Shown piece by piece: positions 1,229 to 63,145 of a stretch of 64,000 nt of DNA. The position numbers and the translations under genes are program-made. Each line of letters opens with the position of its first letter. Positions within the stretch are counted from its first letter, which is position 1. The stretch is taken from the NCBI GenBank assembly GCA_032622095.1, contig CP136061.1:167963107-168027106 (forward strand), read 5' to 3'. This stretch comes from Siphonodentalium dalli (Eukaryota; Mollusca; Scaphopoda; Gadilida; Siphonodentaliidae). A model generated the notes under the pieces. That model did no database searches. It was not told the DNA's origin and saw only the letters and a list, made by a program, of their open reading frames with translations.

Positions 1229-4071
1229 GTTTTGGGCTGTAGCCGAAGTCATGTTTACAACACCCTTTATGCCAAAGGAGAAAAGCAGAGAGACAAATAT
1301 TCAAATATTTCAAACACAGATTTGGACCAGATTGTTACAACTTTACATGAGAAGCATCCAAATGCTGGAGTAAAGGTAAGACTAACGATATTAAACTGAT
1401 GTGAAACAATCCGATAGGGTGATCAAATAGAAATGGAGAATAATCATGCTCAAAGTACCGGTCGTTATTTTTACAAATATTATATCCAAATTGACAACAC
1501 AATCCATCATTCTTATACATTAATTAATTGCAGTGACTGTCGATGGCAAAATCGTTTTTGTTAGTTGAGTGAGCATAGTTCAGACGATGTTTTCTGTGGA
1601 GTGGTATTGATTTGCTTCAAGTCACTACATTGTACATCCAGAGAGCTTTTGTTGTTTTTTTTTACTAGTATTACAAATTAAATTTTTGCAGTTTTTTAAT
1701 GAAAGAGCGAAGTGTTTTTAAGTGTATTATTGCAGTGATTATACATACAAAATACTTAGATATTATTATGATAATGCATGGGTCTCTGCTTGGCTTTTCA
1801 AATTTGTGGACATTGTCGCCTTATTGTGCCACTAGCATCAGCCTTAATTTCAACCCCTTCTATACTCAGTTGACGCTCCCACTCAGTATTAAAAGTCAGT
1901 GGAATGGTCTATTGTTCATTTTTAAGTATGTTCAGGTTATAAATAGAAGAACAGAAGGATTCATATTCATTGCTGGAAAATGTTCAGATAATAAGTTTAA
2001 CAAAACAGCCAATTGTCGTTAACTACTCATCAATGAGATTTTAGTATAAAATGATTAAGGGAGAAATATGAAATAATTCCTCTTCAATTACAGATGATGA
2101 TGGCATATTTAATGACAAGTGGTTTCAATGTTCAAAGAGAAAGAGTAAGGCAATCACTCAGGAGAATAGATCCTGCATCGGTAGCATCTCGCTGGTCCAG
2201 AACAGTTGTCAGACGACGCTACTTTGTACCCCATCCAAATAGCTTGTGGCACATGGATGGTCACATGAAGCTTGTTCGGTAAGTAAACTGCAATGTCCCA
2301 TACTATCTGCATACTAGTTAATACTCATACTAATTAAAATCCTTATTATCTGGTTCATTCCACTACCGTATATGATATATGGTTTTACCCAGAACTATAA
2401 CTTCCACAGAATTTTTCATGTTTAAAGTTTTTATCAATATTCTTCCCCCTACCATATTTTACCAGTGTTCAAATTTGGAGTTACCATACCACTCCTTATT
2501 GTGCAAATTGGCATTAAATATCTGTCATTTGATTACAGATACCATCAATCAATTTATAATGGCATCATAAAACTTCCATCTTGATAAGTATCGACTATTA
2601 GACTTCATATAGGACATTATCACTGAGCCATTTGACCCATGCATTAATGCTCTAAGTAATGGACTCCTTAACCACAGCAGAATTATGGGTAACTTTTCAG
2701 GATTTAGTCGGAAATATGGTTTGTTGCCATTCATCGGAAAGCTTAAGGAGTCCATTACTTAGGGCAAGTAGAACAAGAGCTGTAATTCTGGTAAAAATTA
2801 ATGGATAAAAACCATAGTATCTGGGTATCCTTTCCACCAACATGTGCTATCACCGTGACAAAGGACAACAAAATCCGATAATCAACACCCAGCTTTTCAA
2901 GCTGATATATTCTTTCAGACACAAATTTCCAAGTCAAACAAGGGTCATAACTGGCAAAAATTAATGCACGAAACCCATAGTATGTGGATATCCTTTCCCC
3001 AACATGTGCTATGCCAAAGAACAATGAAATCCAATAATAAAGACATCCACAGAATGTTTGTTATGGACGCATTGTCCAGCAAAGGGCCATAATGCTGGAA
3101 AAAAATTGCACTATGTGGAGATCCTTTTCAAAATGCTGGTCTACTGGCATACCAAAGGACATCCAAATTGGACTATCAATACTTGAGCTGTGTTGAGAAA
3201 TGTTTGTTATGGACAGACGGCTCGATGGACAGACGTCTCCAATTTATTCCCCCGAATCCTCCTTCAGCGGGTTGGGGGCATAATAAGTATGTGGATATAC
3301 CCCATTATTATTACCATCCCATCATTTTATTTCAGATGGGGCTTGGCAACGCATGGTTGTGTGGATGGGAAAACTAGGATGATTACATATATGAAATGTT
3401 CAACTGATAACTCATCGTCAACTGTTTTGGAATCATTTCTTCAAGCTGTGCTTGCATATGGAGTGCCATCGAGAGTGAGGTCTGATTATGGAGGCGAGAA
3501 TGTCCAGGTTGCTGTTTTAATGAATATATTGAATGACGAAAGTATGAATAATAGTCATCTGACGGGAGAGAGCGTTCATAATCAGAGGATTGAAAGAATG
3601 TGGAGAGATGTGTACAAGGAAGTTGTTGAGAAGTATTATTTATTGTTTTATTCTTTTGAAGATGAGAATGTTCTGGATCATGGTGATGATGTACATAAAT
3701 TTTGTTTACATTATGCTTATATTGATTGTATAAATGCAGATTTACAAGCTTTCATGCAGGCGTGGAATTCTCATAAGTTATCTTCAGAACAAAATATGTC
3801 TCCAGAACAGCTTTGGATTCAAGGCACAATTGGTAGAATTGATAATAACTCAATTGCTGAGGACATTAGAAGGAGAGTTCAAGATTTCACCAGTACTAAT
3901 CAAGATAGTACACTTCAAGATGGAGCTGAACCAGATGCTGTCCATGTTTCTGGAGTCACCATCCCAGTTTCTGAAGCTCAGAGCAATGAAATTTTCCAAA
4001 GGACCTCAAACATTATAGATCCAAAAGATAAATATTTGGTGTGCAAGTCAATATTAGAAAGTCCCCAATGA
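1229..4071 (+). CDS. Integrase-core (rve) domain protein, at least three exons
   Basis: Exons are 1229-1375, 2094-2278 and 3336-4071. Junctions are canonical (AAG/GTAAG, CAG/ATG, CG/GTAAGT, CAG/A) and phases agree (0, 0, 2), giving 355 codons plus stop TGA at 4069. Exon 1 holds the helix-turn-helix end VLGCSRSHVYNTL. Exon 2 gives NAGVKMMMAYLMTSG and then HPNSLWHMDGH, with the first catalytic Asp at codon 2256. Exon 3 carries VRSDYGGENV (second Asp, 3484) and VHNQRIERMWRD (Glu, 3592); the spacing is exactly DX35E. A family-typical C-terminal block, FMQAWNSHKLS and MSPEQLW, follows. The family is the rve-fold 'integrase core domain' proteins common in fish and invertebrates, of retroelement/Ginger-like transposon ancestry. 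Whether this copy is a mobile element or a domesticated gene cannot be told here; I saw no terminal repeats. The lack of internal stops suggests recent constraint or youth. Confidence 0.85.
2765..3286 (+). repeat. Tandem-repeat cassette with microsatellite and terminal hairpin, in the integrase intron
   Basis: Three diverged core units of about 140-170 bp (related phrases near 2773, 2942 and 3083, each with a ...AT(A)A.....GG(C/T)(A)AAAA-type block) are followed by GGACAGACGGCTCGATGGAC at about 3212 and then a cap. In the cap TTATTCCCCC (3244) pairs with GGGGGCATAA (3274). The plan matches the other cassettes in the window. It ends about 50 bp before the exon at 3336. Spurious ORFs run through it. 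Confidence 0.6.
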
Positions 4072-4362
4072 AGTTGATTGTTTAGTTGGAAATTTACATA
4101 GCTGTGGCTTGAATAAGTAACTTCTAGATTCACATTTTTAGTGACATCTTGTTGACTTAATTATTTCAGTGACTTAAACTCAGAAGTTAGCACCCAACAA
4201 CAGTTCCACTGGTAGAATGTAGCAATCAACTAATTTTGTTGAAATTTCCAACCACATCGACTGTGCCATTTCAGAGAACACAACTATGCACAAATGAAAA
4301 TATTTACTACTTTATTCAGGACAAATTGTGTTTTTTTTCTGCCTACATGTATTTGAATATGA

Positions 4363-4497: not shown

Positions 4498-4499
4498 TG

Positions 4500-9800: not shown

Positions 9801-11010
9801 AGTCCCTACCAGGACACTCACATAATGCTAATGGTGCAAGTGATGAAATAAATTGGTCAAAGAGATTACTATCTCTTTATTCTTGTGTCATTTTTCATTT
9901 AAAGAGGCTTCACTGTACAAAATTTATGGCTCCAGATACTGGTATATATGAGTTATTGTATAATACTTCTTCATAATATTGAATAATCAATCAGTTTCTA
10001 ACTCAAATTACCCAATTACCCCTGTATTGTTCCCTGAAGAACAAGATGGGACATTTTTATAGTCTAAGACTCGGGACACAGCATGGGGTACTAGTAAATA
10101 TCAACGAATGCCATTGCCTGAATATAGGTGTCCTTTCACATCATGACCATAGATGTTGAAAGTGACATTAAATTGTTCTAGTTTTTTGTGGAAGGAACGA
10201 AGTCTTAAAGATGATCTATCTCTTTGTAAACATGTGTTATATTATATAATATAGTTACCGGGGTATAAAATATTAGATATGAATCAAAGACCCCTGTCCG
10301 GAAATTGATTAATATTCATTATATTTCAAATATTTTCGGGTCTAAAAACGTGTGACAGTTTAGCGAACGAACAATAGTGGTTATTGTTAACAGAGACCAG
10401 AATTTTTATTGTGTAATTTCGTCACAAATAAAAGTTAATTAGATTCTTTATCGCTTATAACAATGTAATAACACAATACAAACAAGCAACCTGGGATATT
10501 TGACACTTTGTGCATAGCTACAGGAACACCCTAATGATCTCTATCGCTATACGATATTGTCTGTTCTAAAAATAGATTAATAAAGTGTCCCACTTTGATA
10601 ATCATGTCATTGTCAAGCCTTGAAATAGCGTGTCTGTCTGTAGTTGATACAGGTGCAGAATTATGAGTACCACTAGGTCTTGGCTGAAAAAAAAAAGATA
10701 AATGTTTTAAGAATACATGTTATTTTAGGTTACTTTGGTTTGGGAGCGGGGTATAGGTGCTGGGTAAGAGTTCAAATAGTAAGTAGCCCAGTATTCATTT
10801 AGCTATGTCACTGTATCAATTCTAGATGACACGAAAAGACTGATTTGAACTAATGTGAAAATACAAGTATGTTACTAGGACAATTCTTGTTTTGTTTTTG
10901 TTTTTTTTTTAGGCTGAATTTATTAGTGAATTGATTTGATTGAGACAATAGTTGATAAGTGCTTAATAAAGTTGCAGAAGTACAAGAAATGATGTTTCCT
11001 TCTTGCATCC
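6806..11010. other. Intergenic DNA with scattered repeat fragments
   Basis: No convincing gene. An (AT)n microsatellite lies at 8074-8092. The segment 8095-8270 is a diverged relative of 1525-1640 (shared AGTTCAGA(C/T)GATGTTTTCT block), so both are copies of one dispersed repeat. A segment at 9380-9420 (AAGGATAACTCTAAAATGG) recurs at 63,150. ORFs of 60-82 codons here lack domain signatures. Confidence 0.45.
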
Positions 11011-16970: not shown

Positions 16971-17529
16971 ACGTGACCAGTGGTGAGTATTGCCATGATT
17001 GCACGAGCAAGGTTTGTTGATTGCGATGTGTGGCGTCATGTCAAATCATCCCTGTAAACAGAATGGATGATTCCAATCAGCAATCAAGGCAATCAATGTG
17101 TGTCTTTCATGTCTGCGACCTTTTGTGGGGTGTCGCTTTCCAGCACGTGATCACAATGATAACTGCTCACACGCAGCCACTCACGCCTGCTGCAGGTGCA
17201 TTCGTCAATAGCCAATTTATAATTGATTCAGTAGCCCTAAGTTTGCAAAGTGACGGGAGGTATATATCGATACTTTCTATATTCTTGTGTCTCATATTAT
17301 ATATATTTGTTTAGTGAATTTCGATATATGTGATGCGTTTGGTCTTATTCATACAACTTATAACGATGATTAAATGGAGAGAAAAGTGGTCAGAAAATTA
17401 GGCATATCCATTTTTTCCCTGTTACATCGCTACAAGAAATCGTATTTGAAAAAAAATGTCACAGCCCAAGATTGAATTTATGTTCTGCAAGCAGAGGGTC
17501 TCTAATGGGGGGGGGGGGTATTGATTTTC
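16971..17529. other. Spacer before the satellite, no gene seen
   Basis: A 97-codon ORF at 17021-17314 has no recognisable domain. A G12 run (17507-17518) sits at the satellite edge. Confidence 0.4.
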
Positions 17530-20500
17530 AATGTCTGTTCAATGTTATAACTTGAACCGTAGTGCTCTGATCTCAATGAAATTTGGTATGGGTGTTCACT
17601 ACTATAAGGACATTCAATGGCATCTGTCCAATGTATGCACCGGACGACAGTATATCTTGTTTTTGCACTGATTTAAATTTCATTAGTTTTGTTCTTTCAT
17701 TTTGTATTCCACATTAGGCAGGACAGATCTCATTATTTTTGTCATTCTGTTTTGTCTTCCAGATTGGAGAGGGTACAATATTTCAGATACTCGGAAGCAT
17801 ACAGAAGATGGCCACATCCAAGATAACGCAGCGAATCAAATGTCTGGTTATTGTTATAGCCCCTTTTTAAAAAAGGTATATTGTTTTGCATCTGTCTGTC
17901 CGGACATTCGTACGTACATCCGCCCAATGTCTGTTCATGCCATAGTGCTCGGTTCTGAATGAAATTTGGTATGGATGTTCCCTACTATGAGTATACTCAG
18001 TAGAATATTCCATCGTTTTGTTCAGATTATTCATTCTAGAGTTATTCATCTTTGTTTATCTGGAAATGTTGGCTTTTTGGTCTGTCTGATGTCTTTTCGG
18101 GACATAACTTGAACAATAATGCTCGGTTCTCAATGATATTTGGTATGGATGTTCACCACTATAAGGACATTCAATGGCATCTGTTCAATATATGCACCGG
18201 ACGACAGTATATCTTGTTTTTGCACTGATTTAAATTTCATTATTTTTGTTCTTTCATTTGGTATTCCACATTATAGACAGGACAGATCTCATTATTTTTG
18301 TCATTCTGTTTTGTTTTCCAGATTGGAGAGGGTAGAAGATTTCAGATACTCTGAAGCATATAGAAGATGGCCACATCCAAGATAACGCAGCGAATCAAAT
18401 GTCTGGTTATTATTATAGCCCCTTATTAAAAAAGGGTATATTGTTTTGCACGTGTCTGTCCGGACATGCGTTCGTACATCCGCACAATGTCTTTTCAATG
18501 TTATAACTTGAACCGTAGTGCTCTGATCTCAATGAAATTTGGTATGGGTGTTCACCACTATAAGGACATTCAATGGCATCTGTCCAATGTATGCACCGGA
18601 CGACAGTATATCTTGTTTTTGCACTGATTTAAATTTCATTATTTTTGTTCTTTCATTTTGTATTTCACATTAGGCAGGACAGATCTCATTATTTTTGTCA
18701 TTCTGTTTTGTCTTCCAGATTGGAGAGGGTACAATATTTCAGATACTCGGAAGCATACAGAAGATGGCCACATCCAAGATAACGCAGCGAATCAAATGTC
18801 TGTGGTTATTGTTATAGCCCCTTTTTTAAAAAGGTATATTGTTTTGCATCTGTCTGTCCGGACGTTCGTACGTACATCCGCCCAATGTCTGTTCATGCCA
18901 TAGTGCTCGGTTCTGAATGAAATTTGGTATGGATGTTCCCTACTATGAGTATACTCAGTAGAATATTCCATCGTTTTGTTCAGATTATTCATTCTAGAGT
19001 TATTCATCTTTGTTTATCTGGAAATGTTGGCTTTTTAGTCTGTCTGATGTCTTTTCAGGACATAACTTGAACAATAATGATCGGTTCTCAATGACATTTG
19101 GTATGGATGTTCACCACTATAAGGACATTCAATGGCATCTGTTCAATGTATGCACCGGACGACAGTATATCTTGTTTTTGCACTGATTTAAATTTCATTA
19201 TTTTTGTTCTTTCATTTGGTATTCCACATTATAGACAGGACAGATCTCATTATTTTTGTCATTTTGTTTTGTCTTCCAGATTGGAGAGGGTAGAAGATTT
19301 CAGATACTCGGAAGCATACAGAAGATGGCCACATCCAAGATAACGCAGCGAATCAAATGTCTGGTTATTATTATAGCCCCTTATTAAAAAAGGGTATATT
19401 GTTTTGCACGTGTCTGTCCGGACATGCGTTCGTACATCCGCACAATGTCTTTTCAATGTTATAACTTGAACCGTAGTGCTCTGATCTCAATGAAATTTGG
19501 TATGGGTGTTCACCACTATAAGGACATTCAATGGCATCTGTCCAATGTATGCACCGGACGACAGTATATCTTGTTTTTGCACTGATTTAAATTTCATTAG
19601 TTTTGTTCTTTCATTTTGTATTCCACATTAGGCAGGACAGATCTCATTATTTTTGTCATTCTGTTTTGTCTTCCAGATTGGAGAGGGTACAATATTTCAG
19701 ATACTCGGAAGCATACAGAAGATGGCCACATCCAAGATAACGCAGCGAATCAAATGTCTGGTTATTGTTATAGCCCCTTTTTAAAAAAGGTATATTGTTT
19801 TGCATCTGTCTGTCCGGACGTTCGTACGTACATCCGCCCAATGTCTGTTCATGCCATAGTGCTCGGTTCTGAATGAAATTTGGTATGGATGTTCCCTACT
19901 ATGAGTATACTCAGTAGAATATTCCATCGTTTTGTTCAGATTATTCATTCTAGAGTTATTCATCTTTGTTTATCTGGAAATGTTGGCTTTTTGGTCTGTC
20001 TGATGTCTTTTCGGGACATAACTTGAACAATAATGCTCGGTTCTCAATGATATTTGGTATGGATGTTCACCACTATAAGGACATTCAATGGCATCTGTTC
20101 AATGTATGCACCGGACGACAGTATATCTTGTTTTTGCACTGATTTAAATTTCATTATTTTTGTTCTTTCATTTGGTATTCCACATTATAGACAGGACATA
20201 TCTCATTATTTTTGTCATTTTGTTTTGTCTTCCAGATTGGAGAGGGTAGAAGATTTCAGATACTCTGAAGAAGCATATAGAAGATGGCCACATCCAAGAT
20301 AACGCAGCGAATCAAATGTCTGGTTATTATTATAGCCCCTTATTAAAAAAGGGTATATTGTTTTGCACGTGTCTGTCCGGACATGCGTTCGTACATCCGC
20401 ACAATGTCTGTTCAATGTTATAACTTGAACCGTAGTGCTCTGATCTCAATGAAATTTGGTATGGGTGTTCACCACTATAAGGACATTCAATGGCATCTGT

Positions 20501-23500
20501 CCAATGTATGCACCGGACGACAGTATATCTTGTTTTTGCACTGATTTAAATTTCATTAGTTTTGTTCTTTCATTTTGTATTCCACATTAGGCAGGACAGA
20601 TCTCATTATTTTTGTCATTCTGTTTTGTCTTCCAGATTGGAGAGGGTACAATATTTCAGATACTCGGAAGCATACAGAAGATGGCCACATCCAAGATAAC
20701 GCAGCGAATCAAATGTCTGGTTATTGTTATAGCCCCTTTTTTAAAAAGGTATATTGTTTTGCATCTGTCTGTCCGGACGTTCGTACGTACATCCGCCCAA
20801 TGTCTGTTCATGCCATAGTGCTCGGTTCTGAATGAAATTTGGTATGGATGTTCCCTACTATGAGTATACTCAGTAGAATATTCCATCGTTTTGTTCAGAT
20901 TATTCATTCTAGAGTTATTCATCTTTGTTTATCTGGAAATGTTGGCTTTTTAGTCTGTCTGATGTCTTTTCAGGACATAACTTGAACAATAATGATCGGT
21001 TCTCAATGATATTTGGTATGGATGTTCACCACTATAAGGACATTCAATGGCATCTGTTCAATGTATGCACCGGACGACAGTATATCTTGTTTTTGCACTG
21101 ATTTAAATTTCATTATTTTTGTTCTTTCATTTGGTATTCCACATTATAGACAGGACAGATCTCATTATTTTTGTCATTTTGTTTTGTCTTCCAGATTGGA
21201 GAGGGTAGAAGATTTCAGATACTCGGAAGCATACAGAAGATGGCCACATCCAAGATAACGCAGCGAATCAAATGTCTGGTTATTATTATAGCCCCTTATT
21301 AAAAAAGGGTATATTGTTTTGCACGTGTCTGTCCGGACATGCGTTCGTACATCCGCACAATGTCTTTTCAATGTTATAACTTGAACCGTAGTGCTCTGAT
21401 CTCAATGAAATTTGGTATGGGTGTTCACCACTATAAGAACATTCAATGGCATCTGTCCAATGTATGCACCGGACGACAGTATATCTTGTTTTTGCACTGA
21501 TTTAAATTTCATTAGTTTTGTTCTTTCATTTTGTATTCCACATTAGGCAGGACAGATCTCATTATTTTTGTCATTCTGTTTTGTCTTCCAGATTGGAGAG
21601 GGTACAATATTTCAGATACTCGGAAGCATACAGAAGATGGCCACATCCAAGATAACGCAGCGAATCAAATGTCTGGTTATTGTTATAGCCCCTTTTTAAA
21701 AAAGGTATATTGTTTTGCATCTGTCTGTCCGGACGTTCGTACGTACATCCGCCCAATGTCTGTTCATGCCATAGTGCTCGGTTCTGAATGAAATTTGGTA
21801 TGGATGTTCCCTACTATGAGTATACTCAGTAGAATATTCCATCGTTTTGTTCAGATTATTCATTCTAGAGTTATTCATCTTTGTTTATCTGGAAATGTTG
21901 GCTTTTTGGTCTGTCTGATGTCTTTTCGGGACATAACTTGAACAATAATGCTCGGTTCTCAATGATATTTGGTATGGATGTTCACCACTATAAGGACATT
22001 CAATGGCATCTGTTCAATGTATGCACCGGACGACAGTATATCTTGTTTTTGCACTGATTTAAATTTCATTATTTTTGTTCTTTCATTTGGTATTCCACAT
22101 TATAGACAGGACATATCTCATTATTTTTGTCATTTTGTTTTGTCTTCCAGATTGGAGAGGGTAGAAGATTTCAGATACTCTGAAGAAGCATATAGAAGAT
22201 GGCCACATCCAAGATAACGCAGCGAATCAAATGTCTGGTTATTATTATAGCCCCTTATTAAAAAAGGGTATATTGTTTTGCACGTGTCTGTCCGGACATG
22301 CGTTCGTACATCCGCACAATGTCTGTTCAATGTTATAACTTGAACCGTAGTGCTCTGATCTCAATGAAATTTGGTATGGGTGTTCACCACTATAAGGACA
22401 TTCAATGGCATCTGTCCAATGTATGCACCGGACGACAGTATATCTTGTTTTTGCACTGATTTAAATTTCATTAGTTTTGTTCTTTCATTTTGTATTCCAC
22501 ATTAGGCAGGACAGATCTCATTATTTTTGTCATTCTGTTTTGTCTTCCAGATTGGAGAGGGTACAATATTTCAGATACTCGGAAGCATACAGAAGATGGC
22601 CACATCCAAGATAACGCAGCGAATCAAATGTCTGGTTATTGTTATAGCCCCTTTTTAAAAAAGGTATATTGTTTTGCATCTGTCTGTCCGGACGTTCGTA
22701 CGTACATCCGCCCAATGTCTGTTCATGCCATAGTGCTCGGTTCTGAATGAAATTTGGTATGGATGTTCCCTACTATGAGTATACTCAGTAGAATATTCCA
22801 TCGTTTTGTTCAGATTATTCATTCTAGAGTTATTCATCCTTGTTTATCTGGAAATGTTGGCTTTTTGGTCTGTCTGATGTCTTTTCGGGACATAACTTGA
22901 ACAATAATGCTCGGTTCTCAATGATATTTGGTATGGATGTTCACCACTATAAGGACATTCAATGGCATCTGTTCAATGTATGCACCGGACGACAGTATAT
23001 CTTGTTTTTGCACTGATTTAAATTTCATTATTTTTGTTCTTTCATTTGGTATTCCACATTATAGACAGGACAGATCTCATTATTTTTGTCATTTTGTTTT
23101 GTCTTCCAGATTGGAGAGGGTAGAAGATTTCAGATACTCGGAAGCATACAGAAGATGGCCACATCCAAGATAACGCAGCGAATCAAATGTCTGGTTATTA
23201 TTATAGCCCCTTATTAAAAAAGGGTATATTGTTTTGCACGTGTCTGTCCGGACATGCGTTCGTACATCCGCACAATGTCTGTTCAATGTTATAACTTGAA
23301 CCGTAGTGCTCTGATCTCAATGAAATTTGGTATGGGTCTTCACCACTATAAGGACATTCAATGGCATCTGTCCAATGTATGCACCGGACGACAGTATATC
23401 TTGTTTTTGCACTGATTTAAATTTTATTATTTTTGTTCTTTCATTTGGTATTCCACATTATAGACAGGACATATCTCATTATTTTTGTCATTCTGATTTG

Positions 23501-24428
23501 TCTTCCAGATTGGAGAGGGTAGAAGATTTCAGATACTCGGAAGCATATAGAAGATGGCCACATCCAAGATAACGCAGCGAATCAAATGTCTGGTTATTAT
23601 TATAGCCCCTTATTAAAAAAGGGTATATTGTTTTGCACGTGTCTGTCCGGACATGCGTTCGTACATCCGCACAATGTCTTTTCAATGTTATAACTTGAAC
23701 CGTAGTGCTCTGATCTCAATGAAATTTGGTATGGGTGTTCACCACTATAAGGACATTCAATGGCATCTGTCCAATGTATGCACCGGACGACAGTATATCT
23801 TGTTTTTGCACTGATTTAAATTTCATTAGTTTTGTTCTTTCATTTTGTATTCCACATTAGGCAGGACAGATCTCATTATTTTTGTCATTCTGTTTTGTCT
23901 TCCAGATTGGAGAGGGTACAATATTTCAGATACTCGGAAGCATACAGAAGATGGCCACATCCAAGATAACGCAGCGAATCAAATGTCTGGTTATTGTTAT
24001 AGCCCCTTTTTAAAAAATGTATATTGTTTTGCATCTGTCTGTCCGGACGTTCGTACGTACATCCGCCCAATGTCTGTTCATGCCATAGTGCTCGGTTCTG
24101 AATGAAATTTGGTATGGATGTTCCCTACTATGAGTATACTCAGTAGAATATTCCATCGTTTTGTTCAGATTATTCATTCTAGAGTTATTCATCTTTGTTT
24201 ATCTGGAAATGTTGGCTTTTTGGTCTGTCTGATGTCTTTTCGGGACATAACTTGAACAATAATGCTCGGTTCTCAATGATATTTGGTATGGATGTTCACC
24301 GCTATAAGGACATTCAATGGCATCTGTTCAATATATGCACCGGACGACAGTATATCTTGTTTTTGCACTGATTTAAATTTCATTATTTTTGTTCTTTCAT
24401 TTGGTATTCCACATTATAGACAGGACAG
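17530..24428. repeat. 6.9-kb satellite, about 957-bp units with higher-order structure
   Basis: About 7.2 units. Landmarks recur at 17702, 18658, 19616, 20575, 21531 and 22490 (spacing 956-959), then 23845. Each unit consists of two related half-units, one near 400 bp and one near 557 bp that carries an extra segment. Between 22928 and 23327 a single extra 399-bp half-unit is inserted. Variants alternate: the GATCGG form pairs with CTCGGAAGCATACAG and the GCTCGG form with CTCTGAAGAAGCATATAG, giving a two-unit repeat of about 1,915 bp. Identity between like units is very high, so amplification is recent. ORFs of 60-88 codons recur only because the DNA repeats; variants introduce stops. Confidence 0.95.
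18415..18490 (-). repeat. Cassette-type hairpin and microsatellite remnant inside a satellite unit
   Basis: TATAGCCCCTTATTAAAAAA followed by GGGTATA can pair its ends, and is next to GTCTGTCCGGACATGCGTTC. Read on the minus strand this is microsatellite-like CGGACAGAC then a terminal hairpin, the same order as the other cassettes. It recurs in every half-unit of the satellite. Confidence 0.45.
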
Positions 24429-27079: not shown

Positions 27080-27400
27080 ATGTGAACAATTAATAAGCAT
27101 GATAAGTTCTTGAGAAGAAATTGTTTTTAAAATTACTATGGCGGGAAACAGTTATGGTCCTGGCTTTGCACCTATTTGATCTGATAAACTTATTTGAACA
27201 AATCTGATTGTGAGTCACCTAGGGAACATGCACACCAAAATATATAAACACATCTGGTCTTTAATATGGAGAAGAAAACAATTGTTGAAAGACAGATGGA
27301 TAGACATCCCAGCAGATAGATGGATAGAAGGACTGCCTGACAGAAGAAGACAAATTCAATCCAATATACCCCCCAATTTTCTTCACCTGGATAAGTGTTG
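27080..27400 (+). repeat. Dispersed repeat fragment with microsatellite-like end
   Basis: Contains TTAAAATTACTATGGCGGGA, GTTATGGTCCTGG and GAGTCACCTAGGGAACATG. The same phrases recur at 42,660-43,200 and 44,700-45,000. It ends in GACAGATGGATAGAC-type repeats and CCAATATACCCCCC, reminiscent of the cassette caps but without a complete hairpin. Confidence 0.55.
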
Positions 27401-27421: not shown

Positions 27422-28372
27422 AGCCAAGCCTGAATTTAGTGTCTGACATTTGCAGAATGAGGTCCCCAAAATGTGAATTGAATAAAAGGTCAGCAGACTA
27501 CAGTGTCCCCCGACAACATGGCAAGAAATTTTACAAAAAAATGTTGAAATTTTCTAAGTCGAAAAGGGTTAATAACTCCATAAAAAATATTAGCTATATA
27601 GATGTTGCAAATCACCAACATGTTAGGAACAATATCCCAAAGTTTCAAATCTCTACATTTCAAACTGTAGGAGGAGTTGATTACACTATGAAGGTACCCA
27701 ATCTCATCCAAAAGGCAAAAATGTTCCAAATTTTCTAAGTCGAAAACCCCCCAAAAATATGGAAAAAATGATATTTTTTATTAGCTATATAGATGTTGCA
27801 AATCACCAACATGTTAGGAACAATATCCCGGAGTTTCAAATCTCTACATTTAAAACTGTAGGAGTTGATTACACCATGAAGGTACCCAATCTCATCCAAA
27901 AGGCAAAAATGTTCCAAATTTTCTAAGTCGAAAACCCCCCAAACATATGGAAAAAATGATATTTTTGATTAGCTATATAGATGTTGCAAATCACCAACAT
28001 GTTAGGAACAATATCCCAGAGTTTCAAATATCTACGTTTAAAACTGTAGGAGGAGTTGATTACACCACGAAGGTACCCGATCTCGGACGCACGGACGGAC
28101 GGACACACGGACGGACGGACGAGGGTCATTTTTATAGTCCTCCGACGGAAACGTTGGGGGACAATGACACTATTCCGCAACGCAGTCTAGCATCACTGAA
28201 TTAACACTCAGTCTGATTAGGCGTCAACTGCCATGGGAAACCTAGAAACAGATTGAAGTTCTACCGTTGAAGTTGGTGGTTCTAGCCTGCTGTACAGGGT
28301 AGCAACACTAAATTCACCCCCTGGGGACCACATTCTGCAAATGTCAGACACACTAAATTCAGGCTTGAGAAA
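27422..28372. repeat. Inverted-repeat flanks around a cassette
   Basis: AGCCTGAATTTAGTGTCTGA with TTTGCAGAATGAGGTCCCC at 27422-27470 is mirrored at 28318-28372. The same flank family appears at 43,390-44,200. The interior is the cassette at 27546-28162, suggesting insertion of the cassette into an older element. Confidence 0.5.
27546..28162 (+). repeat. Tandem-repeat cassette, three units of about 189 bp, GGAC microsatellite, hairpin cap
   Basis: AGCTATATAGATGTTGCAAA recurs at about 27592, 27783 and 27970 (spacing 191 and 187). The core ends in GGACGCACGGACGGACGG-type microsatellite at 28085-28121. The cap is a hairpin: GTCCTCCGACG (28137), loop GAAA, CGTTGGGGGAC (28152-28162), 11 pairs with two G-U wobbles. 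CCCCCGACAAC near 27510 resembles the cap's other arm, giving the element an inverted-end look. Confidence 0.8.
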
Positions 28373-44559: not shown

Positions 44560-44700
44560 GGTTCTTCAAAATTTTAATGAGTTTTTTTTTTAAAATAAAA
44601 TATTTTATTTAATAAAAACAAAATTATTTATTAAAAATAAAATATATATATATATATTTTATTTTTTTTGGTTAAATTGAGCAATAAGTTAAATTGAAAA
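44560..44700. repeat. AT-rich low-complexity tract
   Basis: T-runs, AAATAAAATATTTTATTT-type symmetrical stretches and an (AT)n core around 44,643-44,656. Confidence 0.7.
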
Positions 44701-45077
44701 AAAAATTCAAAAATTCAGATTTATGTCCATAGCCCCACCCACATTTGACCCAGTGACCTCATTGAACAAATCTGAACCAGTCACCCAAGGTACCCTCATA
44801 CCAAATATGAACCCATTCGGCCCGACAACTTCAGAAAAGAAGTCGTTTTAAGAATTACTATGTGGAAAAATAGTTATGGTCCTGACATCAAAACTATTTG
44901 ACTTGGTGACCTCATTTGAACAAATCTGAATGAGAGTCACCTAGGGAACATCCACACCAAATATGAACCAATTCGGTATGATAGTTTCAGAGGAGAAGAT
45001 GTTTTTAAAAAAGTTGACAGACAGACGGACAGACGTAATGACTATAGCTCCACCGGAGACTTTGTCTCAGGTGAGCT
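44700..45077 (+). repeat. Tandem-repeat cassette, two units, ACAG/GGAC microsatellite, hairpin cap
   Basis: Two core units of about 145-150 bp (GTGACCTCATT(T)GAACAAATCTGAA near 44,751 and 44,908) precede GACAGACAGACGGACAGACG (45016-45035). The cap is AGCTC-CACCGGAGAC (45046) pairing with GTCTCAGGTGAGCT (ending 45077), followed by AAAA. Confidence 0.7.
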
Positions 45078-45976
45078 AAAAACTCCATGTTTCTCCTGTG
45101 CTTTTGGCAATAATAATGCAAACTTGACTTCAAAACTATTTTCAAGCCATATGTTTTGTTGTTGCTATTGTTGGGAATAGAGCATCTTTAGTGTTGAGAA
45201 TTATGTAAATCCCATTCTTGTAATTAGATCCTATGAGAATTCATTCAAAATAATATGTGCAACAAAATAGACCTGTCTTCAATATAAAATTTTGTGGAAC
45301 ATAAATTTAAAACATAAAGGTGGTTCCAATTCTTTGTTCTACAATTTCCTAGGGGTATCTAATTTTTAACTATTTAATTATGTTCATGAAGTATCAATCT
45401 TATTCTTCCTGTAGACCACCAAATTGCAATATGAAAAAAAGTCAAAAAATTAAGATGAATTGAAATTATTTTATTTTTCAACAAAACATTTATCAATACA
45501 AAACTCTACATATGTATATTAAACATTAGACTACAAACATAAGAATATATAGAAATTATCTGTAGAATATATATAAATAGATATAAAATATTAATTATTG
45601 AACTAGACTCTAGTCCTATTTCTACAATAAATATATAATCAAAATTTCAAATCATTTGAAATGTTAAACTTCCAGACTATCAGAGAACATTTGAAATATA
45701 CAGGCCACTTTAATATGAGGTAAGCTAACTCATTAATCTAGGCGATGAATGTAATAATAATGGCTTTAATAACTATTGAATTGTGTTGTTTTTGTCACAA
45801 TTCGGAAAACAGGAAAAACAAGTGCAGTGCCAAGCATGGAATATGCTCAGTTTAGAATGTGGGTATAGCTAAGCTATAATACTCCAGGCACATCAGACAT
45901 GAAAGTGGAAAAGTAAGGAAATAAATCGGGGAAAGCTGATTTTAAAAATATTATTTAGACCATAACATCGCGGACG
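45078..45976. other. Intergenic AT-rich DNA, no gene seen
   Basis: Very AT-rich around 45,440-45,620. No ORF above 60 codons and no strong repeat. Confidence 0.45.
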
Positions 45977-47063: not shown

Positions 47064-47280
47064 TTCATAAACATGAAACCCATTGCAAAGGGATTGACTA
47101 TTTCCTTCATATTGGTCTATCACTATATACGAGTGGCCGATCACGATCGGCAGATGTTTAACCCATTTCTTGTCGGTAGTATTTTATTGCCATGATGGGA
47201 ATCATAATCAAGAGTTTTGATGTTAAATTATATGTTATGATCTAAATTAGTATAGACAAATGTGCATAATAATCCAAACT

Positions 47281-49753
47281 AGAGGTGTGACTGTCCCAAT
47301 GGGACTACGGATACCCCCCTGTTTTTAAAATACTAAGATGTTTCACATGTCAGTAAACATTTAGTTAAAATAATAAAATAACAGTTCCCATTGCAGGTGT
47401 ACAACCATAACCCTAATCTTAAACCTATTGACCGAAAAATGTAAGAATAAAAGCTTGAACAAAATTATGTATGTTGCGAAAAACTTTCTAAGTCGAAAAA
47501 TGGGAATAACTCCACACAAAAAATGTCGGACAGACGTCATAATCAGAGGTGCACAGGTTCCCATGGTACTAAACATCAGTGCCAACATTAAAAAACATTG
47601 ACCGAAAAATGTAGGAATAAAAGCTCGGACAAAATTATGCATGTTGCAAAAAAAAATTCTAAGTCGAAAAAGGGGGATAACTCCACCAAAAAATGTCGGA
47701 CAGACATCATAATCGCAGGTGCACAAGTTCCCATGGTACTAAATATCTATGCCACGTTTTAAAAAAATTGACCGAAAAATGTAGGAATAAAAGCTCAGAC
47801 AAAAGTATACATGTTGCGAAAAATTTCTAAGTCGAAAAAGGGGGGATAACTCCACCAAAAATAGTCCGACAGACGTCGTAATCGCAGGTGCACAGGTTCC
47901 CATGGTGGTTGATGTCTGTGCCAAGTTTCACGGAAATTGATCAAAAAACGACTGAGAAAAACTCCGGACAAATTTGTGTCCACGGACGGACGGACGGACA
48001 ATCTGACTCCAGTATACCCCCCCTAACTTCGTTGCGGGGGGTATAACTAGAGGTGTGACTGTCCCAATGGGACTACGGATACCCCCCTGTTTTTAAAATA
48101 CTAAGATGTTTCACATGTCAGTAAACATTTAGTTAAAATAATAAAATAACAGTTCCCATTGTAGGTGTACAACCATAACCCTAATCTTAAACCTATTGAC
48201 CGAAAAATGTAGGAATAAAAGCTTGGACAAAATTATGTATGTTGCGAAAAAAATTCTAAGTTGTAAAAGGGGAATAACTCCACCAAAAAATGTCGGACAG
48301 ACGTCATAATCGCAGGTGCACAGGTTCCCATGGTACTAAATATCAGTGCCAAGATTAAAAAACATTGACCGAAAAATGTAGGAATAAAAGCTTGGACAAA
48401 ATTATGTATGTTGCGAAAAAAATTCTAAGTCGAAAAAGGGGAATAACTCCACACAAAAAATGTCGGACAGACGTCATAATCAGAGGTGCACAGGTTCCCA
48501 TGGTACTAAACATCAGTGCCAACATTAAAAAACATTGACCGAAAAATGTAGGAATAAAAGCTCGGACAAAATTATGCATGTTGCAAAAAAAAATTCTAAG
48601 TCGAAAAAGGGGGATAACTCCACCAAAAAATGTCGGACAGACATCATAATCGCAGGTGCACAAGTTCCCATGGTACTAAATATCTGTGCCACGTTTTAAA
48701 AAAATTGACCGAAAAATGTAGGAATAAAAGCTCAGACAAAAGTATACATGTTGCGAAAAATTTCTAAGTCGAAAAAGGGGGGATAACTCCACCAAAAATA
48801 GTCCGACAGACGTCGTAATCGCAGGTGCACAGGTTCCCATGGTGGTTGATGTCTGTGCCAAGTTTCACGGAAATTGATCAAAAAACGACTGAGAAAAACT
48901 CCGGACATATTTGTGTCCACGGACGGACGGACGGACAATCTGACTCCAGTATACCCCCCCTAACTTCGTTGCGGGGGCTATAACTAGAGGTGTGACTGTC
49001 CTAATGGGACTACGGATACCCCCCTGTTTTTAAAATACTAAGATGTTTCACATGTCAGTAAACATTTAGTTAAAATAATAAAATAACAGTTCCCATTGTA
49101 GGTGTACAACCATAACCCTAATCTTAAACCTATTGACCGAAAAATGTAGGAATAAAAGCTTGGACAAAATTATGTATGTTGCGAAAAAAATTCTAAGTTG
49201 TAAAAGGGGAATAACTCCACCAAAAAATGTCGGACAGACGTCATAATCGCAGGTGCACAGGTTCCCATGGTACTAAATATCAGTGCCAAGATTAAAAAAC
49301 ATTGACCGAAAAATGTAGGAATAAAAGCTCGGACAAAATTATGAATGTTGCAAAAAAAGTTTCTAAATAAAAAAAGGGGGATAACTCCACCAAAAAATGT
49401 CGGACAGACGTCATAATCGCAAGTGCACAAGTTCCCATGGTACTAAATATCTGTGCCACGTTTTAAAAAAATGTAGGAATAAAAGCTCGGACAAAAGTAT
49501 ACATGTTGTGAAAATTTTCTAAGTCGAAAAAGGGGGGATAACTCCACTAAAAAAAAGTCCAACAGACGTCATAATCGCAGGTGCACAGGTTCCCATGGTG
49601 GTTGATGTCTGTGCCAAGTTTCACGGAAATTGATCAAAAAACAACTGAGAAAAACTCCGGACAAATTTGTGTCCACGGACGGACGGACGACGCCGACGGA
49701 CGGACAAGCTGACTCAAGTATACCCCCCCCTAACTTCGTTGCGGGGGGGTATA
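47281..49753 (+). repeat. Three complete cassettes in tandem (768, 937 and 768 bp)
   Basis: Each copy begins AGAGGTGTGACTGTCC (47281, 48049, 48986). Inside are core units of 169-170 bp starting at GACCGAAAAATGTA: 47430, 47600, 47770; 48198, 48367, 48537, 48707; 49135, 49304 and a truncated one, each series ending with a variant unit (GATCAAAAAACG). Then comes a (GGAC)n tract and a hairpin cap, TATACCCCCCC...GCGGGGGGTATA (48013-48045, 48951-48982, 49719-49753). Copy 2 has one extra core unit. So repeats exist at three levels: microsatellite, 170-bp core, whole cassette. Minus-strand ORFs up to 121 codons reflect the repeat, not genes. Confidence 0.95.
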
Positions 49754-49954
49754 ATTATTGGAATTTATGGGTCAAAAGAGAAGGGTTAATATAACATCTA
49801 AACTATAGAGCCTGTCACCACTATCATCGTGTAAGCAGTTCTATTTATGTTTTTGCAAATTGCCATGTGAGATATACAAATAATAGTTATTTAATAATGG
49901 CATTGTTAAAAGGGGTTAAAACATCTATCTTGGCCCTGTTTGACCACTTTTGTA

Positions 49955-51841: not shown

Positions 51842-52249
51842 TTAATGATGAACCTGTTTAAAAGTAGAATGGTTAATTTAACATGTTCTGCCCTGTTGAA
51901 TCAATAGTCATGTTTGAGACATGTAGATTATTCACATTTGTTAGTAGACAATATTTTTAATTAGTGCTAGCATATAGTCTATGTAATGGTTGGCCTTGAT
52001 AAACCTAGGTGAGATATGACAATGATCAGATTGAAAATAACTGAGTACTTACACCAGATAACAAAGGTCTATGAAATTTTTGGGAAGGGTTAATTATTCA
52101 ACCAATCATTACCAACAAGAACATTGCTAGGGCATGGCAAAATATGCCCTTTAGCCATTTTGAATTGTACTACCAAAAATAAAATAACATTTTGAGCTTA
52201 CATTTGAAGAATATCTGATATACTCCTAATTTCAATGCCAAATTGCGGT

Positions 52250-53124
52250 CAAATTCAAAGTCGAAAAAGGGCCTTAACTCATGTAAAAATAATTGGACGG
52301 AACCCATATTTGAACTTGGCCTGTATCGTTAGCTGGGACATACACATATCAACTTTGGTTCAGATCAAATAATCCAAACTGGAGTTATCGGTAGGAAACC
52401 AAAAATGTTAACAGATGGTCAAATTCTAAGTCGAAAAGGACTGCAACTCATGTAAAAATAATTGGACGGAACCCATAATCGAACTTGGCCTGTATCTTTA
52501 GCTGGGAAATACACATACCAACTTTGGTTCAGCTCAAAAAATCCAAACTGGAGATGTCGGTCGGAAACCAAAAATGTTAACAGATGGTCAAATTCTAAGT
52601 AAAAAAAGGGCTGTAACTCATTTAAAAATAATTGGACGGAATCCATATTCGACCTTGGCCTGTATCTTCAGCTGGGAAATACAGATAGCAACTTTGGTTC
52701 AGATAAAATAATCCAAAATGAAGTTATCGATCGAAAAACCAAAAATGATGACTGATGGACGGATGGCCATAACTATTAATACAATTTTTTTTCAAAAGGT
52801 CGTATAAAAACTAGACAGGTGAGGGGAGTGTCATCATAAACCTGCACATAAAATATGAACATGATCAGATAAAAAAAACTTGAGTTATAGCATCCGATAA
52901 AACATGTCTATTGGTGGATGGAAAGTTTTAATTATTCCCAAACCCGATCAACACCAAAAACTATACAGGTGAGCAGTGATTGCGAATAAAATATTAAATC
53001 AATTCGATAAAAAATACTTGAGTTATCAGTCAGATAGAAAGTGTCTACAGAGTGACAGACGAATGACGGATGGTTGATCCTGATGTCAGCATTATGTGTA
53101 CCATACATGTTATGGGTACACATA
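52250..53124 (+). repeat. Cassette: 170-bp core units, two GGAC-like tracts, hairpin cap
   Basis: AATTGGACGGA recurs at 52291, 52460 and 52630 (spacing 169-170). A short GATGGACGGATGG tract lies at about 52,753, then a second pair of units (CTTGAGTTAT near 52,879 and 53,020) ends in GACAGACGAATGACGGATGG. The cap TATGTGTACC (53093) pairs with GGGTACACATA (to 53124). It may be two cassettes fused. Confidence 0.75.
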
Positions 53125-53182
53125 AAAATCTTTTCAGATTTCAAATCTTGCTATTTTCCATGCCCAACAAGAGCTAGTTCAA

Positions 53183-56315: not shown

Positions 56316-56932
56316 ATCCACATTCAATATTCACTCGACACCCTCCTTTAAAGTTAAATACTATGTAGTACATGTAGGGCAGGGTAAACAAAGGTTTCTA
56401 AACCTGAACTGAGGACTAAAACCTTGATTAATCAGGGTACCATGCAGGTGGGTAATAGAACCAGATACTAGGAACTGCACATATACAAGACTTGTGCTCC
56501 GATCCCCTGTGCACCCACAACATTATCCATATATTCTGTGTTATGTTAAATATTCCATGTATATGTGGGTCACAATAAATATGTTCAAACAAGACTTGAA
56601 TAAATATTTTATATATAAATACCTGCCTCCTCCCAAAATATATTTTCAAATAAATAATACATGTATATACAAATAACTGCCTCCCTCGTCATTTTGAATA
56701 AACCATTCCATGAGAAACGACCTATTAATTTTATATGGCCTTATTAAGTAACTTCCTTTGGTCGTAGCATATATCAAATACCATGCATAACATCATCTGC
56801 ACCATATACGTTTGCATTCATAGCTTCGTTCAAACGATGAATCATTAGAAAATGGGTTACCGGTGTACTCCATTGGAGCATCGTATGCACAGAGTTAGAA
56901 AATGAAAGTGTCAATGACACTGTAGCTCAACT
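56308..56932. other. Intergenic, no gene seen
   Basis: No ORF with a recognised domain. CTGCCTCC(T/C) phrases occur at 56,623 and 56,676 within locally repeated AATA(C)ATGTATATAC-like text. Confidence 0.4.
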
Positions 56933-58382
56933 TGGAAAGGGAATAATTTAATGTATTACACTCAATGGAGCGATTAGGAATGCAGAAAGTTGAAATGTCT
57001 AAGTAATACTAGATTATCAACATGAAGAGATATATAATTATATAACAGTAAAATCCAAGATGGTTGCTGGCGGCTATGTTTTCCAATAAAATTCAAAAAC
57101 ATTTGATAGCTTCCATCTAGTAAGATCAATATCAAGATTAATATGAAGTCTGGAGATGATCGGATGAGGGAAGTGGACTGTATAGGGTGTGCCAAAGGAT
57201 TTAGAGTAAAATCCAAGATGGCTGACAGTGGACACGTTTTAAGGCCAAATGACCCTAAAATGACTCGTTTCCTATCCATGTCCCAATGTCAACAGCCATG
57301 ACAAATTTCATAATGATCTGACCAAAGGTACGACCTGTAGCCTGTGTGAAATGATTTAGTCATGCAAAGAGTAAAATCCAAGATGGCTGCCAGTGGCCAT
57401 GTTTTCTGGCCGAACGACCCCAAAATTACTCGTTCCCATCTACATGTCAATATTAACATCCATGACAAATTTCATGATGATCAGATGAAAATTACCACCT
57501 GTAGCCCGAGCTAATGGATTGAATTTTGAAATCCAAGATGGCTGCTGGCGGCCATGTTTTTCGGCCAAATGACCCCAAAATGACTCGTTCCCATCTACAT
57601 GTCATTGTTAACATCCATGACAAATTTGATGATGATCCGACCAAAGCTACGACCTGTAGCCCGTGCCAAAGGATTTAGTCATGCAAAGAGTAAAATCCAA
57701 GATGGTTGCCGGTGGCCATGTTTTTTGGCCGAATGACCCCAAAATGACTCGTTCCCATTTACATTCCAATTTCAACAGCCATGACAAAGTTCATGATGAT
57801 AAGACTAAAGATACGACCTGTAGCCCGTGCTAAAGGATTTAGTCATACAAAGAGTAAAATCCAAGATGGCTGCTGGCGGCCATGTTTTTTAGCCAAATGA
57901 CTCGTTCCTATCTACATGTCATTGTTAACATCCATGACAAATTTTGTGATAATCCGACCAAAGGCACGACCTGTAGCCCGTGCCAAATGATTTAGTCATG
58001 CAAAGAGTAAAATCCAAGATGGCTGCTGGTGGCCATGTTTTTTGGCCGAGTGACCCCAAAATTACTTGTTCCCATCTACATGTCAATATTAACATCCATG
58101 ACAAATTTCATGATGATCAGATGAACAGTACAACCTGTAGCCCGTGCTAATGGATTGAATTTTGAAATCCAAGATGGACGCTGGCAGCCATGTTTTTTTT
58201 CCGAATGACCCAAAATGAATCATTCCGGTCTAAATGTTGATGTCAACAGCTATGACAAATTTCATAATGATCGGACCAAAGGTACGACCTGTAGCCTGTA
58301 TTGTTGACGAATCACGCACACATGGACGACGGACGACAAAGCCATGGCAATAGCTCAAACTTTACAAAGTAAAGTTGAGCTA
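56933..58382 (+). repeat. Cassette with eight core units of 153-166 bp
   Basis: AAATCCAAGATGG starts at 57051, 57208, 57374, 57529, 57693, 57857, 58010 and 58165. The 5' end carries TAGCTCAACTT (56933-56943) and the 3' end AAGTTGAGCTA (58372-58382), so the ends are inverted copies. After the core come ATGGACGACGGACGAC and a cap: TAGCTCAAACTTT (58351) pairing with AAAGTTGAGCTA. The hairpin and a CTAA terminus recall Helitron-type 3' ends (inference). Alternate units differ in a GAATTTTGAAATCC versus AAGAGTAAAATCC lead, implying a mixed expansion history. Confidence 0.9.
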
Positions 58383-61769: not shown

Positions 61770-63145
61770 CTTTCTATTCTACGCAGATGGACAAAAAAGG
61801 ACGAAGGATTTATGGGTTTCAGATCCCAATACTACAAACAGCAGGAGGAATTGATTACACCAATATGTAGGGTTGAAATGATTAATCGACTAGCTGTAGT
61901 CGACGCTGAAATAGTGTATGTTACATAGTTACATGTATAACGTTTTCAAGATCGATTCCGGCATAAACGGTGTTAACTGCGCGTAAGTTACGGTAAGTAT
62001 AACGTTTGGTGGCACCCGGAATTGACAGTGTTACTGGTATAGACACACATAGTGACCCGACTATTAATTGAAAGAATGAAATTGACAACACAATGTCTCA
62101 CTCGTCGTTTGAGGTCAAAGACATCACTGTGACATGATGGCAATGATTGACGTGGCTTTATCGTTTGTTGGAGACCGCTTTGATCTAGACACTGTGTATA
62201 TTTCAATTGATCTCGCACCGTCGGGTTATAATGCGACGCTGTGTGAAGGTCGTTGCTACCGAATATAAATGATACTGACAGCGCTTGATCGGGACTCTAA
62301 TTATATAATTACATTCAGTGTGTTGGATAAAATTAATATCAAGATGTTTACTGTATTATTTCCCAAATAAATTGGTGTCTATGCAGGGAAATGCGCTGCG
62401 CAATAGACCGTCATTGACTCAGTCATCAGTGTACGCCATGTACGATGAATTTTCCGTACCATGTTATGTTTGAAAGTTTTAATATCGGGTACCGACTAGT
62501 CGATACAACGCGACTTTTGGGCCTCGACTAGTCGACTTTGAAATTCACTGGTCGTTTCAACACTACCAATATGATACAAAGTGCATATTCACAAAATATT
62601 TGCACATCTTGAATAAGTCGAGAAAGGGTCAATAACTCTAAAATAAAAAACATAAAACATTTCTAGGTCGAAAATGGCAATAACTCTGCCAAATTAACTG
62701 GAAAATGATGGAATATAAGCTTGGACAAAAGATGCGTCCCATGATGTACGATTCTATGTTGAAAAATGGCAATAACTCCACCAAAATGACTCCGACTTGC
62801 AGATGTGCAGGTTCCCATGCTGGCCGACGTCTGTGCCAAGTTGTAACCAAATTTACTGGATAATGACGGAATACAGACTCTGACAATAAAGGTGTCTCAG
62901 GTTGTACAAACACAGGTCAAAAAAGAGCATTAACTCCATCAGAATGAGTCTGACTGAACTCAAAATCGCAGGTGTGCAGGTTCCCATGCTGGTTGATATA
63001 TGTGTCAAGTTTAACAACAAATGACCATAAAATGACAGAATACAGACTCGGACAATGTTCCAGATGGATGGAGTCAATGGATGGAAGCCCACACACATGG
63101 ATGAAGGTCGTTACATTTGTTCACCGACGGAATGTCGGGTGACAA
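61770..63145 (+). repeat. Tandem-repeat cassette interrupted by a hAT element
   Basis: Left part: ACAAACAGCAGGAGGAATTG then ATTACACC, related to the core at 27,665 (GTAGGAGGAGTTGATTACAC). The right part resumes after 62573 with GTCGA(G)AAA(A)(A)GGG.AATAACTC phrases, three diverged units (GCAGGT(G)TGCAGGTTCCCATG at about 62,796 and 62,969), GATGGATGGAGTCAATGGATGG, and a cap TTGTTCACCGAC (63117) pairing with GTCGGGTGACAA (to 63145). Confidence 0.65.
61860..62573. mobile_element. Second non-autonomous hAT-type element with 8-bp target duplication
   Basis: The element spans 61868-62565. It starts TAGGGTTGAAATGA and ends ...TCGTTTCAACACTA (reverse complement TAGTGTTGAAACGA), 12 of 14 matching; GACTAGTCGA-type subterminal repeats lie at both ends. 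CCAATATG flanks both sides (61860-61867 and 62566-62573). No transposase ORF. Removing it restores a continuous cassette core, so the order of events is clear: cassette first, hAT later. Confidence 0.9.

Follow-up and report, generated by a model that had tools for sequence, protein, structure and literature searches.

Identity and Orientation of the Repeat Cassettes

The repeat cassettes scattered along a 64,000-nucleotide stretch of the genome of the scaphopod mollusc Siphonodentalium dalli (assembly GCA_032622095.1, contig CP136061.1, positions 167,963,107 to 168,027,106 of the forward strand; the whole stretch is hereafter called the window) are very probably insertions of several families of non-autonomous Helentrons (HINEs), together with their tandem copies and decayed remains, lying mostly on the minus strand, with core arrays that derive for the most part from one ancestral repeat. 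A preliminary description of the window had listed seven loci with one layout, in which a core tandem repeat is followed by a GGAC/ACAG-type microsatellite and then by a hairpin. These loci, labelled F1 (2765), F2 (27546), F3 (44700), F4 (47281), F5 (52250; arrays F5a and F5b), F6 (56933) and F7 (61770), were inspected nucleotide by nucleotide and screened for hairpins, microsatellites, tandem repeats and self-similarity. Central repeats are present at all seven, and the order core array, microsatellite-like stretch, hairpin was recognised by eye at each of them, giving nine copies when 47281-49753 is counted as three. Missing from this list were a 7-kb array facing the opposite way (F9, 17.5-24.4 kb), a decayed cassette (F10, 27.1-27.4 kb) and F8 (63.4-64.0 kb), whose core array, at 63.6 kb, is truncated by the end of the window. 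Two of the listed cassettes are composite, as 61770-63145 is interrupted by a 698-bp insertion and 52250-53124 consists of two different arrays in series. Over the whole window, F1 to F8 (once each) and F10 make nine families or cassettes in one orientation, F9 alone being opposite; both orientations occur according to the oyster paper (PMC7492417).

The hairpin had been taken for a 3' signal, and comparison with the HINEs of Crassostrea gigas (Cg_HINE) points to the other polarity. The left flank of Cg_HINE consists of a 5' subterminal inverted repeat (subTIR), a complementary inverted repeat (IR) and a microsatellite that is often GTCY, GTCC or GTCK; tandem repeats of 138-181 bp follow, then a 3' subTIR and then a palindrome (PMC7492417). 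On the minus strand, the cassettes read as a subTIR with its inverted copy, a GTCY-like stretch (degenerate in some) and about 2-7 satellite-like monomers, and GGAC on the plus strand is GTCC on the minus strand, as in the GTCY-type microsatellite. Where far ends survive, a complementary 3' subTIR is present (F2, F4, F6), in F4 and F6 with a palindrome outside it; the other far ends are absent or interrupted. This anatomy agrees with the published HINE scheme module by module. By this comparison, the supposed 3' hairpin is the 5' subTIR with its complementary IR, so that the element had been read backwards, and the 3' palindrome stands at the opposite end; the reading of the hairpin as the 3' end was rejected. 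The far-end subTIR and palindrome, where preserved, the junctions within F4 and one empty site without target duplication all fit HINEs. The resemblance to pearl and Helentron-associated elements noted in the preliminary description is borne out by this anatomy, these junctions and this site.

By analogy with the family, a Helentron Rep/helicase encoded elsewhere would copy one strand starting at the 5' end, copying would halt near the 3' palindrome, and bypass of this stop would yield head-to-tail copies; the cores would mostly stem from a single ancestral repeat some 165 bp long, around which the end modules changed. One mobilising mechanism common to the families is plausible, and has already been proposed for the HINE family. 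The cassettes would thus belong to a known type of small rolling-circle element with satellite-like repeats.

Left Ends and Far Ends

Microsatellite-like stretches were seen by eye in every cassette. A formal scan without shuffle control detected GGAC/ACAG/GGAT-type stretches in five of the seven families, namely F1, F2, F3, F4 (all three units) and F5 (between its arrays), and was also positive in F9. For the hairpins, the 80 bp past the microsatellite end (set by hand) were compared with 500 dinucleotide shuffles each, and in the eleven ends tested the top-scoring hairpin begins 8-21 bp off. The numbers of shuffles equalling the real hairpin were 57 for F1, 48 for F2, 16 for F3, 2, 28 and 0 for the F4 units, 1 for F5, 6 for F6, 348 for F7, and 218 and 441 for F9. 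As a set, the hairpins are above chance, as the preliminary description required of them (Fisher p ~2e-5 over eight families with one end each, using F4 unit 1 and the better F9 end). Singly, they are significant in F3-F6 and borderline in F1 and F2, while those of F7 and F9 alone are not above shuffles, the hairpin scored in F7 not being the bulged one at 63117-63145. DNA folding of the left ends gave z values of -3.8 (F3), -3.9 (F4 unit 1), -3.7 (F4 unit 3), -3.2 (F5) and -4.4 (F6), and weaker values of -1.0 to -1.9 in F1, F2, F7 and F9. The hairpins differ in sequence among most families, as had been observed; the subTIR texts include TATACCCCCC and TAGCTCAACTT.

At the far ends, inverted text common to both ends of the element, which had been described for several cassettes, was recovered as a 3' subTIR in F2 (8 of 500 shuffles as good), F4 (5, 20 and 12) and F6 (19). 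The corresponding counts for the 3' palindromes were 39 (F4a), 21 (F4b) and 7 (F6).

The F4 Triplet

F4 is the one family in which repeated junctions fix both ends. Its three minus-strand units (768, 937 and 771 bp) directly adjoin one another head to tail. Unit 1 (47279..48046) has a CTAG terminus at 47279-47282, a palindrome at 47293-47305, a 3' subTIR at 47311-47319, three monomers, a GTCC microsatellite at 47982-48000 and a hairpin at 48013-48045. Unit 2 (48047..48983), with four monomers, abuts units 1 and 3, and unit 3 (48984..49754) has three monomers, a hairpin at 49719-49753 and a 3' palindrome with one mismatch. Both internal junctions read CTAG then TTATA on the minus strand, where the triplet is preceded by CCAATAA and followed by TTTGGATT, with no duplication visible at these outer flanks.

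Canonical Helitrons begin with 5' TC and end in 3' CTRR, with a palindrome of 16-20 nt about 11 bp inside. F4 starts with TTATA instead of TC, and its 3' end (47279-47305) is made of a 13-nt palindrome, 10 nt, CTAG and then T, a Helitron-like 3' terminus beside a HINE-type left end. With its A|T flanks, TTATA...CTAG resembles the proto-Helentron, which has 5' TT and 3' CTAG, the terminal Ts being ambiguous (PMC4067079). All three head-to-tail units have complete ends, whereas inner tandem copies are described as often 3'-truncated (PMC7492417).

The history of the triplet involved ordinary duplication. Monomers m3 and n4 are 100% identical, as are n1 and p1, and m2 and n3 are 99% identical, with the last two monomers of unit 3 being 4-5% off their counterparts. 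These near-identical pairs indicate a recent duplication of a 937-bp block across a junction, so that at least one F4 copy arose via ordinary tandem duplication. That unequal crossing-over or segmental duplication produced the whole triplet, with no rolling-circle read-through, is a serious possibility with somewhat less than an even chance, favoured by the almost unchanged duplication of the junction-spanning block. However, this leaves the first exact end-to-end junction unexplained, as such a junction requires two abutting elements and hence either insertion side by side or rolling-circle read-through. Helitrons have been described as bypassing their termination signal (PMC4067079), and by analogy this may have occurred at F4.

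Evidence Weighing against the Identification as HINEs

Several results weigh against assigning the cassettes to HINEs. The microsatellite scan was negative at F6, F7 and the outer end of F5, where the stretches are too degenerate and are recognised by eye only, so that the claim of a microsatellite throughout holds by eye everywhere and by scan in five families. No 3' subTIR was found in F1, F3, F5 and F7 (four of the seven cassette families), and over the seven families the 3' subTIRs are only modestly significant (p = 0.03). The outer palindrome was not found in F1, F2, F3, F5 and F7 (five of seven), the best palindrome of F2 scored worse than 496 of its 500 shuffles, and the palindromes over seven families are not significant (p = 0.10). 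Nor are the 3' palindromes clearly better folded than shuffles (z 0.13 for F4 and -1.07 for F6); the 3' end of F2 folds somewhat better than shuffles (z -2.08), but in a different fold. The F4 flanks are compatible with A|T or T|T, with which TT targeting is only consistent. The Helentron Rep/helicase that the preliminary description proposed as a partner was not found by Pfam scans of 50 of the 61 open reading frames of at least 90 amino acids in the window.

These scans returned an integrase core (rva_4) above the cut-off (E 6e-71) and, below threshold, DUF4218, endonuclease/exonuclease families and a GDSL lipase family. Transposon coding remnants lie at 3190-4068 (plus), 36276-37511 (minus) and 29946-30668 (plus), comprising the rva_4 integrase core, a weak DUF4218 and a weak endonuclease/exonuclease of the non-LTR (non-long-terminal-repeat) type.

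Homology of the Core Repeats

The cassettes had been called sequence-unrelated, which proved wrong for most of them. When nine core arrays (F1, F2, F3, F4, F5a, F6, F7, F8 and F9) were aligned by Smith-Waterman with no hand-picked anchor, 15 of the 36 pairs stood at or below 1 in 100 shuffles on the same strand, against only one on the opposite strand; all nine core families are connected in one network by the 15 same-strand pairs. Two boxes, A (about AAGTCGAAAAAGGGNNATAACTC) and B (about ATACCAAATTTCANNNAAATCNGA, often followed by GAGTTAT), occur together and in one orientation in seven of ten core families (F1, F2, F4, F5a, F7, F8 and F9), and in F3, F5b and F6 the profile search found box B but no box A. 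With profiles trained on all families, the nearest following B lies 70-89 bp from A in the same seven. No such B accompanies two A matches in F7 (at 62603 and at 62655), a match at the end of the window, one lying outside the cassettes (9296) and a weak one on the wrong strand in F8. When each family in turn was left out of the profile, box B was re-found on the expected strand in nine of ten families, with best E-values of 0.051 (F1), 0.024 (F3), 3e-5 (F4), 0.024 (F5a), 0.014 (F5b), 0.004 (F6), 0.003 (F7), 4e-4 (F8) and 8e-7 (F9). Box A was re-found on the expected strand in all seven (F1 0.001, F2 9e-6, F4 2e-8, F5a 9e-7, F7 6e-6, F8 2e-4, F9 0.065). Calibration on 20 shuffled windows with five profiles gave four of 100 best matches with E <0.05, the lowest being 0.0035, so the E-values are about right. 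From the fixed order, spacing and orientation of the two boxes in seven of ten families, we infer that the cores are mostly related by descent from an ancestral repeat of about 165 bp.

Other observations speak against this relationship. Box B of F2 was missed in the leave-one-out search. A box B match at 7910-7960 (minus; E 1.5e-4 to 1e-3), without a visible left end or microsatellite, outranks the left-out family's own match in six of the nine re-found families (F1, F3, F5a, F5b, F6 and F7). Two further places score for box B, 32731-32772 (minus), without a left end, and 9220-9279 (plus), with box A alongside at 9296. For box A, an outside match at 9297-9322 stands above that of F9 itself (0.043 vs 0.065), and one run gave 0.078 at 52145-52174 (minus). 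The box anchors were chosen by eye, and full independence of the leave-one-out tests is lacking, since F4 is related to F7 and F1 to F5a. The matches at 7.9 and 32.7 kb were rejected as cassettes, no left end being visible by eye. Isolated relics of box A/B or of F3-like or F5b-like monomers, without recognisable ends, occur at 9220-9322, 42676-43202 and 51238-51315.

The preliminary description instead supposed that independent, unrelated arrays had converged on one architecture through one trans-acting mechanism, as published for part of the oyster families. Such convergence would accord with end hairpins and subTIRs that differ among most families, with the lack of box A in F3, F5b and F6, with the 21 of 36 core pairs that are not similar beyond 1 in 100 shuffles, and with the match at 7910, which lies outside any cassette and scores above several families' own. 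However, same-strand similarity joins all nine tested families with almost nothing on the opposite strand, and the two boxes hold their order, spacing and orientation in seven families, including the reversed F9; we regard convergence as unlikely.

The modules have recombined. F7 opens with an F2-like monomer (0 of 200 shuffles scored as well), its main monomers are F4-like (Z 54), and its left end resembles that of F2 by eye, while F4's own ends differ; ends and cores are therefore not strictly linked in transfer. In the seven families compared, variability is not significantly lower in the boxes than elsewhere in the monomer: it is slightly lower in F6 and F8, equal in F5a, and higher in F1, F2, F4 and F7. 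Functional constraint being thus unsupported, the boxes are taken as a trace of descent and not as proven binding sites. The distance between successive B boxes inside a continuous array is 138-191 bp, close to the unit length of about 140-190 bp first reported. The proposal that this length reflects selection at nucleosome scale, an idea already published (PMC8268682), is not needed if the cores are homologous, as shared ancestry suffices.

It is conceivable, if on balance doubtful, that most HINE cores of this animal, even in "unrelated" families, come from a single repeat with two boxes, some 165 bp long, whose orientation to the left end was kept as end modules around it were exchanged. 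Swapping of ends around one core would reverse the published picture, in which related ends acquire unrelated repeats. In lepidopteran elements, CCAAATTTCAT...ATCGG-like text stands beside GTCY microsatellites, which would imply a very old core. No mention of two boxes common to most core families of one genome was found in the sections consulted of PMC7492417, PMC5139131, PMC11136912 and PMC8268682, nor in broader literature listings; the box sequences, searched as text in the literature, led to unrelated papers only. A box A match in viral contigs (L001) was judged to be chance, the surrounding 2.5 kb being ordinary coding-like DNA with no core array and only two short tandem repeats. Further scans of viral contigs and prokaryote genomes for relatives gave no matches.

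Insertion Sites of F2 and F7

F2 occupies 27480..28166 (minus), with a 3' subTIR at 27504-27514, the core at 27537-28084, a GTCC microsatellite at 28084-28121 and the 5' subTIR/IR hairpin at 28134-28165, and is nested in a foldback element with other copies at 43.2-44.2 kb. By eye, an empty copy near 43978-43999 reads GGTGAATT-TAG-TGACGCTATCC, and the F2 flanks are GTGAATT and TGACACTATTCC; compared with this paralogous empty site, the insertion shows no target duplication, three bases being unassigned. BLAST joined the F2 flanks to the foldback copies only in pieces. One F2 boundary coincides with the outer edge of the hairpin. The examination of boundaries at the hairpin and of clean junctions that the preliminary description had called for was feasible for F2 and F4, and in both the boundaries and junctions are of this kind. 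The foldback or palindromic transposon family extends over 27424-28374 and 43202-44206, with one copy hosting F2 and others tandemly duplicated (91% over 376 bp).

F7 (61770..63145, minus) consists of an F2-like monomer split by an insertion, F4-like monomers at 62650-63056, a degenerate GGAT stretch (by eye) and the bulged hairpin. The insertion (61868-62565, 698 bp), which we take to be hAT-like, is bounded by a perfect 8-bp target site duplication (CCAATATG) and has imperfect terminal inverted repeats TAGGGTTGAAATG / TAGTGTTGAAACG.

It is highly improbable that the cassettes are foldback DNA transposons or miniature inverted-repeat transposable elements (MITEs) moved by a DDE transposase, with the hairpin as a terminal inverted repeat, even though bivalve pearl-like elements have been classed as MITEs (PMC5139131) and other inverted-repeat and foldback elements occur in the window, since the surviving other end is a single subTIR plus a separate palindrome and not the same hairpin, and the F2 empty site lacks a duplication, unlike the inserted element in F7. 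An origin from MITEs or other terminal-inverted-repeat elements was rejected on this difference in end structure and on the absence of duplication at the F2 empty site and the F4 outer flanks.

Structure of the Remaining Cassettes and Other Repeats

The remaining minus-strand cassettes are preserved to different degrees. F6 (56907..58382) retains a 3' palindrome (56907-56921), a 3' subTIR (56923-56933), an array up to 58299, a degenerate GTC-rich stretch (by eye) and a hairpin at 58351-58382. F5 (52247..53125) combines F5a (52247-52758, boxes A and B) with F5b (about 52790-53060, box B only) and a perfect 11-bp hairpin at 53092-53125; its right flank was not found. F3 (44700..45078) has two core monomers (box B only), a microsatellite at 45016-45035 and a hairpin at 45045-45078, and its right flank was not found either, the core running into an AT-rich tract. 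In F1, the core (2765..3205) holds about three decayed monomers with boxes A and B and no far end was found, while the left flank (3209..3283) has a weak GTCY microsatellite (3209-3239) and a subTIR/IR hairpin (3244-3283); F1 is adjoined by a 119-bp element (2648-2766) with 24-bp, 96% inverted repeats. F10 (27100..27383) contains an F3-like core (27112-27239, 80% to 44834-44961) and, by eye, a GATG/GACA-like stretch and the single hairpin arm TATACCCCCC. In F8 (63420..64000), right-flank-like text with the palindrome GCATCNNNGATGC (by eye) precedes a core array with boxes A and B; the right flank reads CTTG, and the left flank falls beyond the window.

F9 (17529..24428, plus) is a 7-kb higher-order array of a 957-bp unit in about seven copies that are 96-98% alike. 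By eye (in 17300-18700 and 23600-25300), each unit has two HINE-type left ends on the plus strand, TTATAGCCCC...GGTATA plus GTCTGTCCGG, and its minus strand carries three box B matches, of which two lie 174 bp from each other. The array as a whole faces the opposite way, yet relative to the left end its boxes are oriented as in the other families. No right flank was recognised in F9, which we note as a mobile element turned satellite.

Two palindromic arrays also occur in the window. Tandem repeats of the palindrome TTATTTGCGCTTAAGCGCAAATAA form three blocks at 11325-14180, two of them within an 85% duplication (11009-11592 and 12646-13311), and the palindrome GGAGATATCTCC is arrayed in tandem at 38270-38559 with spacers of about 10 bp.

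Comparison with Known Elements and Significance

A close known parallel, judged by description and not by sequence, is Cg_HINE, with its subTIR and IR, GTCY-type microsatellite, 138-181 bp repeats (mostly up to five), 3' subTIR and palindrome, its T-rich site without target duplication, some elements with two arrays, and a fixed orientation of the array to the ends (PMC7492417). It differs in that several of its families are called unrelated in all modules, whereas most cores here have two boxes in common; in the sections consulted of that paper, two segments in common are reported only for one group (CL1, CL2, CL10 and CL13 with CL4), and the extension made here is modest. The pearl family of bivalves (CvA, CvE and CvG; DTC84, MgE), which has been grouped with HINEs (PMC7492417), has central repeats of about 160 bp and, in CvA, a microsatellite-like segment, the comparison again being by description only. 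By description as well, the DINE-1/HINE/Helentron elements of Drosophila, mites and Culex are comparable, with subTIRs, an IR near the 5' subTIR, a 3' stem-loop, a microsatellite, sometimes central repeats, and a T-rich target without duplication (PMC4067079). In the BIV160/Cg170/HindIII satellites of bivalves, each monomer is about 160-170 bp long and contains two conserved motifs (PMC5139131), and two polymerase chain reaction primers for BIV160 given there, the only BIV160 letters compared, matched the window no better than shuffles.

The corrected polarity decides which end of these elements is the candidate start of replication and which the stop. The core comparison suggests that families unrelated by eye can be one family when profiles are compared in the right orientation, which bears on the question of whether Helentrons repeatedly capture satellites or carry and diversify one old repeat. 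Within these 64 kb, the F4 triplet and the 7-kb F9 array illustrate two ways in which a mobile element may become a satellite.

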